Positions 2,138-8,244 of a DNA stretch of 23,921 nt are shown in pieces. A program made the position numbers and the translations under genes. The notes under the pieces were generated by a model. It was not told the origin of the DNA and made no database searches. It saw only the letters and a list, made by a program, of their open reading frames with translations. Every line of letters starts with the position of its first letter. Within the stretch, counting starts at the first letter, position 1. The stretch lies in IMG/VR virus record IMGVR_UViG_3300017605_000219, positions 1-23,921 of that record. One strand, 5' to 3'. This DNA is from a virus.

Positions 2138-3109
2138 CTACCCCAACCCATACGGCATTTCGATCATCCTGCGAACATCCCCTTGCGTCGCTTCGTCGCT
2201 GTCCTGCCTGTATGCGTCGAGAATTTCGATTGATTTATTCAGCTCCATCAAAGTTCCACGGATGAAGCTGACCATGTTCTTATTCTTGAAGTGATCGTCG
2301 TACGCCTTTTCCCAAATCGGCCTGATCCGCTTTATCTTCTGGAAAGGCGTGAGTGCATCCAAATACCCTTCGCTTTTGACGGCTGCGGTTTCGGCTGCGT
2401 TCAAATTCTCCTGAAGCACGCGCTTCCTAAGTTCCAGGCGGGACCGATAACCTTGATCAAAGTCCTCGTATGCGTAATGTTTGCCAGTCAGCAAATGGGA
2501 TCCCGGAGCTTCGATGGACATTCCGAGGCCGCGTCCGTAGCCTACCCAATACTCGATACATGGCCGCTGGACTGCGTATTCCGTGTTTGATTCAGCCTCG
2601 AAGCCGTACAGCTCGATTGCGTGATCTGGCAGGTAATGGATCGCATAGGCCAGCATGTGCGCGAGTGTGGATGTCAGATAAATCTCACCGTGCGCCGCTT
2701 CGATCGCCTCGATGGGAAAGCGGATACAGCCGGGAACGTCCTCGTTCAAGTCCTGCATGATGATTCGCTTTGGCTTGCCGTTGGCTTGTAGTCGGCTTTC
2801 TGGGTAATGATATTCTCCCTTGTCACACCATGGACAATCGACCTCTTTTCCCTCTTGGTACGCCTTTCCACCACCCTTACAATAAAGGCATGGGTCATTG
2901 CGTTGCTTGATAAACAACGGATGATTCGGGTCTGCAAGGTTGTTCGAGCGATCCCAGTCCCAACGCTTGTGAATCTGGAAAACCACATCGTACCGCTTCA
3001 TCCAATCCTTTGATGGTCCTTCGTTGAGCGTCCAGAACTCCGCGTCTGCATCCCAAGGGATAGCCGATCTAGTGCGTGGATTCATGCCGATCATTATGAC
3101 CTTATTCAT
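2138..3109 (-). CDS. GT42/DUF115-like nucleotide-sugar fold protein with zinc-knuckle insertion
   Basis: 323 residues from the ATG at 3109, which overlaps the previous stop by 8 bases (ATGAATAA) and follows GAGG; an alternative start at 3139 would add 10 residues. The N-terminus MNKVIMIGMNPRTRSAIPWD then FWTLNE resembles the Rossmann-type start of DUF115/Maf and CstII-like sialyltransferase proteins, as does a later segment (HAIELYGFEAE). Between them lies a DnaJ-like knuckle (CLYCKGGGKAY, then CPWCDKGEYH). The C-terminal third is helical and charged. It shares the general layout of the 189-residue protein at 7234. Substrate and role are unknown; DNA or cell-surface glycan modification are both possible. 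Confidence 0.5.
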   Translation of the reverse strand: MNKVIMIGMNPRTRSAIPWDADAEFWTLNEGPSKDWMKRYDVVFQIHKRWDWDRSNNLADPNHPLFIKQRNDPCLYCKGGGKAYQEGKEVDCPWCDKGEYHYPESRLQANGKPKRIIMQDLNEDVPGCIRFPIEAIEAAHGEIYLTSTLAHMLAYAIHYLPDHAIELYGFEAESNTEYAVQRPCIEYWVGYGRGLGMSIEAPGSHLLTGKHYAYEDFDQGYRSRLELRKRVLQENLNAAETAAVKSEGYLDALTPFQKIKRIRPIWEKAYDDHFKNKNMVSFIRGTLMELNKSIEILDAYRQDSDEATQGDVRRMIEMPYGLG

Positions 3110-3317
3110 CACGCCTCGAATCGTCTTTATTACGCCCAATCTCCAATGCTTCTATCTTTTCGCGCAATTCCCTGATAATGTCTATTACACCGATCAACAT
3201 AACGTCAGTGGCGCGATCGACCAATCCTCCAGTCAGAGAAATGCCGCGCTCCTGTGCTTCGAGTGCAATTTTTTGGTATGGTGCTTCTGGTAAGTCGCTT
3301 ATTTTTCTTCCTGTCAT
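3102..3317 (-). CDS. Hypothetical protein, 71 aa
   Basis: Start taken as the ATG at 3317 because GGAGG lies 6 bases upstream; an upstream ATG at 3338 would overlap the core repeat and lacks this site. Sequence MTGRKISDLPEAPYQKIALE is followed by a hydrophobic helix (DVMLIGVIDIIRELREKIEA). No family recognised. It lies just after the last attC-like site, so its ribosome site is carried on the 18-bp sequence that also precedes the gene at 3628. Confidence 0.65.
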   Translation of the reverse strand: MTGRKISDLPEAPYQKIALEAQERGISLTGGLVDRATDVMLIGVIDIIRELREKIEALEIGRNKDDSRRDE

Positions 3318-3321
3318 TTTT

Positions 3322-3339
3322 TCCTCCGAGCCGCCCAAC
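3322..3339. repeat. 18-bp direct repeat, copy 1 (contains attC R' core)
   Basis: TCCTCCGAGCCGCCCAAC, identical to 3856-3873. On the minus strand it reads GTTGGGC (an integron GTTRRRY core) followed by the GGAGG ribosome site of the next gene. The two copies bracket both cassette-like units. Confidence 0.85.
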
Positions 3340-3457
3340 GGTTTGCGTTAGCGGCGATTGGATTTACGACGACGAACACAACCAGCACAGGTACATCTTG
3401 CCAAGATCGGATGGTTGTGTGTGCCCGAAAAATCGTCCGCTGCACGTTGTGTTAGGT
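3333..3457 (-). repeat. attC: attC-like recombination site A (125 bp)
   Basis: In gene orientation: R'' box ACCTAAC (3457-3451), 9-base spacer, L'' box AGCGGACGATT (3441-3431), a 71-base centre, L' box AATCGCCGCT (3359-3350), 10-base spacer, R' box GTTGGGC (3339-3333). L'' and L' are complementary except for one extra base in L'', the known polarity signal of attC sites. The centre folds further (ACACAACCA with TGGTTGTGT, then ATCTTG with CAAGAT). The length lies inside the usual 57-141 bp attC range. Confidence 0.65.
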
Positions 3458-3572
3458 GGCGTTTCACCTTTGCGACAATTTGACGGGCAAGTTCCATATT
3501 TTCTTGCTCACTATCACCATCGTATAGCGCGATAAATTTGGCAACTTCCTTGACAATACTTTTCTTTTTCAT
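3348..3572 (-). CDS. Cassette gene A, hypothetical 74-aa basic protein
   Basis: ATG at 3572 follows AAGGAGG. The first half is a charged helix (MKKKSIVKEVAKFIALYDGD, then MELARQIVAKVKR). The second half is encoded inside the attC-like site and ends in CTCAGCVRRRKSNRR, so that tail may be only read-through of the recombination site. No family recognised. It is the only gene of a 265-bp unit bounded by core boxes at 3598 and 3333, matching the one-gene layout of integron cassettes. Confidence 0.6.
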   Translation of the reverse strand: MKKKSIVKEVAKFIALYDGDSEQENMELARQIVAKVKRHLTQRAADDFSGTHNHPILARCTCAGCVRRRKSNRR

Positions 3573-3597
3573 AAGCCTCCTTGCGGGCAGGTTCGCC

Positions 3598-3720
3598 ACC
3601 TAACGGTTGGTATTACTTGCCGCCGATTTAGCGGACGAACACCAACCAACAAATACCGAAGCCAGCGCAGAACGCCAGCATACCTACGCCAAAGGTGGTC
3701 AAGTGCATACGGTGTTGGGC
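3598..3720 (-). repeat. attC: attC-like recombination site B (123 bp)
   Basis: In gene orientation: R'' box GCCCAAC (3720-3714), 9-base spacer, L'' box ACTTGACCACC (3704-3694), a 69-base centre, L' box GGCGGCAAGT (3624-3615), 10-base spacer, R' box GTTAGGT (3604-3598). As in site A, L'' carries one extra A after its fifth base, and spacer lengths are the same. The single mismatch between L boxes is a G-T pair on the plus (bottom) strand, the strand that is folded and cut in attC recombination. Confidence 0.65.
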
Positions 3721-3852
3721 GGCTTTTGCGACTTGGAGAAACTGCACCCGAAGAACAGCCGCCATTGCGAACACACCCAAATCGCTCAATGCAAGATCAT
3801 AGCCTTCTCGAAAATCATTTGCTAACCAACTTGCTCTTTCAGATATATTCAT
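3628..3852 (-). CDS. Cassette gene B, hypothetical 74-aa protein with C-terminal membrane segment
   Basis: ATG at 3852 follows GGAGGAGCA. N-terminal region MNISERASWLANDFREGYDL, then a hydrophobic C-terminus (FGVGMLAFCAGFGICWLVFV) encoded within the attC-like site. If translated as written it would be a small tail-anchored membrane protein. No similarity to gene A apart from the attC regions. It is the only gene of the 269-bp unit bounded by core boxes at 3867 and 3598. Confidence 0.55.
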   Translation of the reverse strand: MNISERASWLANDFREGYDLALSDLGVFAMAAVLRVQFLQVAKAAQHRMHLTTFGVGMLAFCAGFGICWLVFVR

Positions 3853-3855
3853 TGC

Positions 3856-3873
3856 TCCTCCGAGCCGCCCAAC
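3856..3873. repeat. 18-bp direct repeat, copy 2 (upstream edge of cassette array)
   Basis: Identical to 3322-3339. It contains a GTTGGGC core on the minus strand but no attC arms lie upstream, so it may mark the original insertion point. Similarity goes a little further (CAAACC three bases upstream here, directly adjacent in copy 1). Confidence 0.8.
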
Positions 3874-3896
3874 TATGGTTTGAGCAGAATGTACAT

Positions 3897-4097
3897 CTAA
3901 AAATTAAGCTTGATGTATCGTTTTCGCTTCGGTTTGATTTCGATATCGGGCAGCACGTTCTTGACTGCCTTCTATATAGCCAATTTTACCGCGTCTGTTT
4001 TGGACATCTTGTGGATTGAATCCTCATTTAGTTTATCGACCAGTGCCATGACATACAATTCGTATTCACTCAGATCTGGTCTAAACTTCCTTTTCAT
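3897..4097 (-). CDS. Small ORF, 41 aa, interrupted by in-frame TAG; 24 more codons beyond it
   Basis: ATG at 4097 follows AGGTGATGGA. It reads MKRKFRPDLSEYELYVMALV and continues to a TAG at 3974-3972. After the TAG the same frame stays open for 24 codons that look like the natural end of the protein (AVKNVLPDIEIKPKRKRYIK), stopping at 3897. TAG is an ordinary stop elsewhere (capsid and portal genes end in TAG), so this is either a nonsense mutation, read-through, or a truly short 41-residue product. Confidence 0.45.
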
Positions 4098-8127: not shown

Positions 8128-8244
8128 TCAAAAGTCCTTTCGGTCGGTGATTTCGCCGTCGATGACGATGGAGGAAAACCGATTGCCTGTTCGTCGTTTC
8201 AACGGCAGGAAGCCACGGAAGAGGAAGCGGAGATATTCGATCAT
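8128..8244 (-). CDS. Small coupled ORF, 38 aa
   Basis: ATG at 8244 overlaps the stop of the zinc-ribbon gene (ATGA), and its TGA is one base before the DUF1064 start. Sequence MIEYLRFLFRGFLPLKRRTG, hydrophobic then basic, then RFSSIVIDGEITDRKDF. It loosely resembles the 39-residue product at 8455 (MI, then LF, basic, hydrophobic, acidic end). Exact coupling at both ends is the main evidence. Confidence 0.55.
   Translation of the reverse strand: MIEYLRFLFRGFLPLKRRTGNRFSSIVIDGEITDRKDF

Follow-up and report, generated by a model that had tools for sequence, protein, structure and literature searches.

A two-cassette array in a circular phage genome

The window, by which we mean the whole 23,921-nt stretch of DNA analysed, holds the circular 23.8-kb genome of a tailed phage, whose ends join through a direct terminal repeat of 141 bp. 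It encodes a terminase, a portal protein, a major head protein, a tape-measure protein, tail fibres and RecT, and the terminase belongs to phrog_38. Searches for DNA similarity to isolated phages returned no match, while those against plasmids gave only 23-bp matches, which we judged to be due to chance.

Three core boxes lie on the minus strand, GTTGGGC at 3873-3867, GTTAGGT at 3604-3598 and GTTGGGC at 3339-3333, and delimit two units arranged head-to-tail. A preliminary description of this DNA had placed core boxes at 3333, 3598 and 3867, with units of 265 and 269 bp; we located the same boxes and obtained the same unit sizes. Measured between cut points, cassette A spans 3604-3872 (269 bp) and cassette B 3339-3603 (265 bp), each with a core box at either end. 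Each contains a 74-aa open reading frame on the minus strand (3628-3852 in A, 3348-3572 in B) with a purine-rich ribosome site, in keeping with the single small gene previously assigned to each unit. Both stop codons sit inside the attC site that ends the unit, so that much of each attC is read as protein.

The product of the cassette A gene has no Pfam or PHROG match, that of cassette B has no significant family match in Pfam or PHROGs, and both proteins are absent from the 301 Chloroflexota genomes searched. The cassette A gene does match another phage array, in a segment confined to its attC-encoded C-terminal part. At the DNA level, the cassette A attC is 88% identical over ~122 nt to the attC of viral contig 3300035183_000502 (L053), with the gene parts unmatched. 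An Rfam search of the cassette region gave COG2908 as its sole match, which we attribute to chance.

Past the last core box, the 3′ flank of the array reads TTGGGCGGCTCGGAGGAAAAAATG. A 71-aa gene without an attC follows on the minus strand (3102-3317), and its 18-nt leader, GTTGGGCGGCTCGGAGGA, is identical to that of cassette A. This gene may be either what flanked the site on the right from the start or a final cassette whose attC has been lost.

Both cassettes end in attC sites

The attC sites of cassette A (3598-3720, 123 bp, minus strand) and cassette B (3333-3457, 125 bp, minus strand) coincide with the attC-like ends of 123 and 125 bp proposed earlier, with geometry and model in agreement. 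In both, RYYYAAC and GTTRRRY boxes flank two inverted L boxes at fixed spacing, and the order is as had been claimed: R″, a 9-nt spacer, an 11-nt L″, the centre, a 10-nt L′, a 10-nt spacer and R′. The L boxes pair at 9 of 10 positions in the cassette A site and at all 10 in the cassette B site. In both sites L″ carries an extra A behind the fifth pair, as also described before, which gives them the strand polarity expected of attC. In the 123-bp site, an A.C mismatch on the top strand becomes a T.G wobble on the bottom strand. When spacers and bulge position were left free, a geometry scanner returned only these two sites across the whole window on both strands; the same scanner gave 2 matches in 60 dinucleotide shuffles.

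We then scored the window with an attC model trained on 16 clustered sites from Chloroflexota-type genome contigs, with no phage sites in the training set. The cassette B site scored 75.6 and the cassette A site 40.7, compared with 5.9 for the next best place in the window and a maximum of 26.3 over 300 random windows. Because the right-end attC pattern used for a genome scan had been derived from the phage sites, the model was retrained without the training sites that match this pattern. The two sites then scored 71.2 and 42.6, with random windows reaching no more than 29.7, and a further retrained variant gave 68.7 and 35.5 against 31.0. With one genome per species, the right-end pattern matched 22 contigs, mostly from Chloroflexota and Anaerolineae, and an integron integrase above the curated cut-off was found in 9 of the 15 genomes tested. 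Folded as single-stranded DNA, the cassette B site adopts a clear canonical attC fold (z ~ -2), while the canonical fold of the cassette A site is not the minimum-energy one (z ~ -0.3 to -0.8). Sequence model, geometry and the comparison of relatives given below thus support the view, put forward in the preliminary description, that the units are integron-type cassettes ending in attC within a phage genome.

A conserved attI-like site heads the array

The first core box had been described as a phage core site. We found that it belongs to a larger conserved attI-like site that reaches outside the coordinates first given for the array, occupying 31 bp on the minus strand (3867-3897) with the form GATGTACATTCTGCTCAAACCATA-GTTGGGC. 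The full sequence at 3897-3867, GATGTACATTCTGCTCAAACCATAGTTGGGC, is common to the window and to its relative G002, and a recurring sequence of this type, 25-31 bp long, precedes the array in about 20 viral contigs. The cut would be expected between G and TT, at 3873/3872. The attI-like sequence is also present in other phage loci that were originally found through attC alone.

A motif scan of viral contigs retrieved 28 stretches; the scan required TGTACA and TAGTT, and the uniformity of these elements among its matches is therefore partly imposed. Overall, 21 distinct non-coding versions of the site were collected. Downstream of the motif, a model-scored attC on the same strand was found at 20 of 29 loci (the window and 19 of the 28 others), placing the site at the head of an array and in its orientation, as is expected of attI. 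Opposite-strand attC sites were found at none of the 29, and one locus has an attC upstream as well. The first attC usually lies 170-500 nt from the motif. Where the motif falls inside coding sequence it has no attC, and most of the loci without an array are of this kind. The contigs with attI-like site and array carry terminases of at least three unrelated groups: phrog_38 (the window), phrog_3717/phrog_2 (L046, L035) and phrog_5909 (L151, L152, L153, L174). Alignment of 150 bp on each side of the core gave a mean identity of 61% upstream and 48% downstream, a contrast too weak for us to build on. Three viral contigs contain two attI-like sites, each followed by attC: IMGVR 3300012228_000007 (L151/L167, L175), 3300029893_000010 (L169, L074) and 3300028840_002990 (L168, L094).

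In the window, the attI-like site is immediately preceded by a small phage-specific gene, o3972 (3897-4097, minus strand, as delimited by translation). Homologues of ~64-70 aa occur in at least ten other viral contigs, and the gene directly precedes the attI-like site in about half of the phages; in about half of cases the upstream gene differs, non-o3972 genes included. All ten distinct o3972-family loci tested are followed by a same-strand attC, with the attI-like site in between in nine. No family member was found in 298 Anaerolineae genomes. In the window copy, codon 42 (3974-3972) is an in-frame TAG, which leaves a product of 41 aa, whereas relatives have a sense codon there; recoding of TAG was ruled out, since TAG terminates eight other genes in the window. 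The copy in L178 also has an early stop. No Pfam, PHROG or PDB family was found for o3972. Among isolated phages, weak matches to Staphylococcus phage packaging proteins were judged to be chance, and assignment as a ribbon-helix-helix protein was rejected, as the predicted model (modest confidence) shows two helices and no strand.

Related phages carry different cassettes

The nearest relatives are the IMG/VR phages G001 and G002, which have most window proteins in common at ~50-76% identity. In G002, the equivalent locus contains three attC sites accompanied by unrelated small genes. That of G001 also contains three, but the genes are different again and one of them encodes a Dam-type methylase; the window cassette genes have no match in either phage. 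Because the two nearest phages carry different cassettes at this locus, the cassette genes are not fixed members of an operon, an alternative that the preliminary description had raised. The empty-site allele it had also proposed to look for was not found. DNA methyltransferases are among the known cargo of such arrays, and Dam methylase families recur in the arrays of other viral contigs; cargo of this kind would fit escape from restriction.

Two further differences concern the surroundings of the array. The o2138-family gene (2138-3109 in the window) is found downstream of the window array and upstream of the arrays in G001 and G002. The second attC of G001 (L009 8715-8823) contains a ~45-bp copy of the 3′ end (8146-8195) of that phage's own o2138-family gene, joined to the core GTTAGGT, which reflects either a secondary-site event or an assembly chimaera.

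We considered whether a fragment of a host integron passed into an ancestral phage on a single occasion and was then inherited and degraded, with no exchange driven by an integrase. Such a history would be consistent with the lack of an integrase in the phage, the premature stop in the window o3972 and the damaged attC sites of some relatives, for example G001, whose last core box reads GTATAGGC. However, cassettes differ among phages that have both o3972 and the attI-like site in common, the site is kept even where the upstream gene differs, attC pairing is intact and cassette families such as the Dam methylases recur in other arrays. On this evidence, we regard such a history as unlikely.

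The source of the integrase

Profile searches of the window returned no match to the integron integrase (TIGR02249) or tyrosine recombinase (PF00589) profiles at E ≤ 10, in agreement with the earlier claim that the phage encodes no integron integrase. With at least two attC sites within a few kb and no such integrase, the window has the make-up of a CALIN (a cluster of attC sites lacking an integron-integrase) and lacks the intI gene of a complete integron.

Among viral contigs, 3300009285_001180 (L178, L243) encodes a 349-aa IntI-like protein (L178 859-1905) that scores 257.9 bits against a cut-off of 265. Its gene lies upstream of o3972, the attI-like site and a cassette array, and by this arrangement the contig is possibly a complete phage integron. 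IntI-like proteins are also encoded by three viral contigs with attC ends, L043 (8911-9891), L081 (1746-2729) and L064 (5099-6121), and in L043 a terminase-like gene lies near the IntI-like gene. As at least one related contig has a near-cut-off IntI, the integrase acting in trans could come not from the host chromosome but from a second phage, co-infecting or resident, that encodes an IntI-like protein itself. We consider this improbable, given that none of 32 viral records, other attI-array phages included, has an IntI above the integron cut-off, that no phage-type attI was found in L043, L064 or L081, and that a quarter of the sampled Anaerolineae genomes (74 of 298) have an IntI above the cut-off.

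The phage site resembles attI of Anaerolineae integrons

To compare phage and host sites, we built a matrix from the phage attI-like sites minus TGTACA and ran it on the regions upstream of and divergent to intI in Anaerolineae genomes, most of which had been drawn without regard to attC. At ≥12 bits, 14 of 31 chromosomal intI loci had a match, compared with 0 of 93 controls; at ≥8 bits, the figures were 19 of 31 and 1 of 93. The phage site thus resembles the sites that lie next to intI and point away from it, as is expected of attI. Host examples include ATCCACATAAAACATAGTTAGAC (L121), TTCCATATAAACCCTAGTTAGCC (L122) and GTCCGTATAACCACTAGTTGGGC (L209), and the G002 phage site reads TTCCGCATAAAACATAGTTGGGC. 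Phage and host sites are nevertheless not identical: the full phage form with TGTACA occurs in none of the 298 Anaerolineae genomes, and the two therefore differ in the left half. Distant terminase relatives occur in 7 of the 298 genomes. The attC and attI types, together with these terminase relatives, suggest that the host is most likely a member of the Anaerolineae (Chloroflexota).

These matches also bear on how the cassettes came in. Cassettes can insert at secondary sites, attG (Loot et al. 2024, cited in PMC11389934), and off-target or illegitimate recombination has been proposed for phage arrays (Qi et al. 2023, PMC9892861), in which case the sequence before the first core would be no dedicated attI. 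We find such entry very improbable here, because one specific sequence recurs before the array across viral contigs and finds its match beside host intI far more often than in controls. Integron arrays are repetitive and break assemblies, and many host contigs end within or near one, yet fortuitous repeats in phage genes or a host integron misassembled into a viral contig can hardly be the explanation when attC scores lie far above random, the contig is circular with a terminal repeat and the same layout recurs in contigs that were obtained independently from separate metagenomes and bear a terminase or portal gene.

A probable integrase-less integron platform

Taken together, these findings make it very probable that the region is an integrase-less integron platform, formed by the attI-like site and the two-cassette array, that uses host IntI. 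Chromosomal IntI, most likely from an Anaerolineae host, would bind both the phage attI and the cassette attC sites, the latter as folded bottom strands, and insert circular cassettes at G^TT of the phage site. Alternatively, IntI may excise the cassettes or exchange them with the chromosomal integron. Such recombination, as predicted from the sites, would let the phage draw on the host cassette pool at one reserved place and take cassettes to new cells.

Some observations run counter to this reading. Neither recombination nor an excision product nor an empty site was observed, and the cassette A attC folds poorly as single-stranded DNA. Flow of genes from host to phage is not established, because the window cassette genes are absent from the Chloroflexota genomes searched.

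Since the phage has no integrase, phages of this kind seem to collect genes by means of the host gene-capture machinery. We also think it fairly likely that several unrelated lineages of Chloroflexota tailed phages maintain an integrase-less attI platform, hijack host IntI and load exchangeable accessory genes, with phage and chromosome forming one cassette pool. The accessory genes, methyltransferases and small proteins, plausibly serve counter-defence. Integrons are a main gene-capture system of bacteria, and the means by which cassettes pass from cell to cell have long been debated. If our interpretation is correct, phages not only carry cassettes but also exploit integrons for their own accessory genes, and host IntI is predicted to recombine the phage attI with attC sites. 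Metagenomes can also be searched with the attI-like site to find further phages that bear an attI.

Comparison with known systems

The chromosomal integrons of Anaerolineae share with the phage locus attC sites of ~90-130 bp with 9- and 10-nt spacers and the extra A, and the 3′ part of their attI, of the TCCGCATAAAACATAGTTRGGC type, agrees with the phage site. In contrast, the phage copy lacks intI and its attI has the TGTACA left part.

Integrase-less arrays in phages have already been published, and the present case belongs with them. Qi et al. 2023 (PMC9892861) found 17 CALINs in phages, among them Tetrasphaera phage TJE1, Polaribacter phage P12002L and Pseudoalteromonas phage PH101, and when they tested six phage attC sites in E. 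coli, IntI1 recombined five. As in the window, those CALINs have at least two attC sites, small cassette genes and no integrase, and DNA methyltransferases are among their cargo. Shewanella phage M16-3 and Vibrio anguillarum phage Va_90-11-286_p16, temperate phages with complete integrons, likewise carry integron components in a phage genome, and M16-3 has an attI before its CALIN; as described in the same source, however, both encode IntI and resemble captured pieces of host integrons, whereas the phages described here keep the site from one phage to another and the window encodes no integrase. In the open-access literature searched, we found no earlier report of a conserved phage attI that matches host attI, predicts an array and recurs in unrelated phages. 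For the CALINs of virulent phages, the text of PMC9892861 consulted reports no conserved attI. The present phages, whose likely host phylum is Chloroflexota, differ from them in having a host-matching attI-like site that recurs in about 20 contigs representing three or more terminase types, predicts the array and often stands behind one phage-specific gene.
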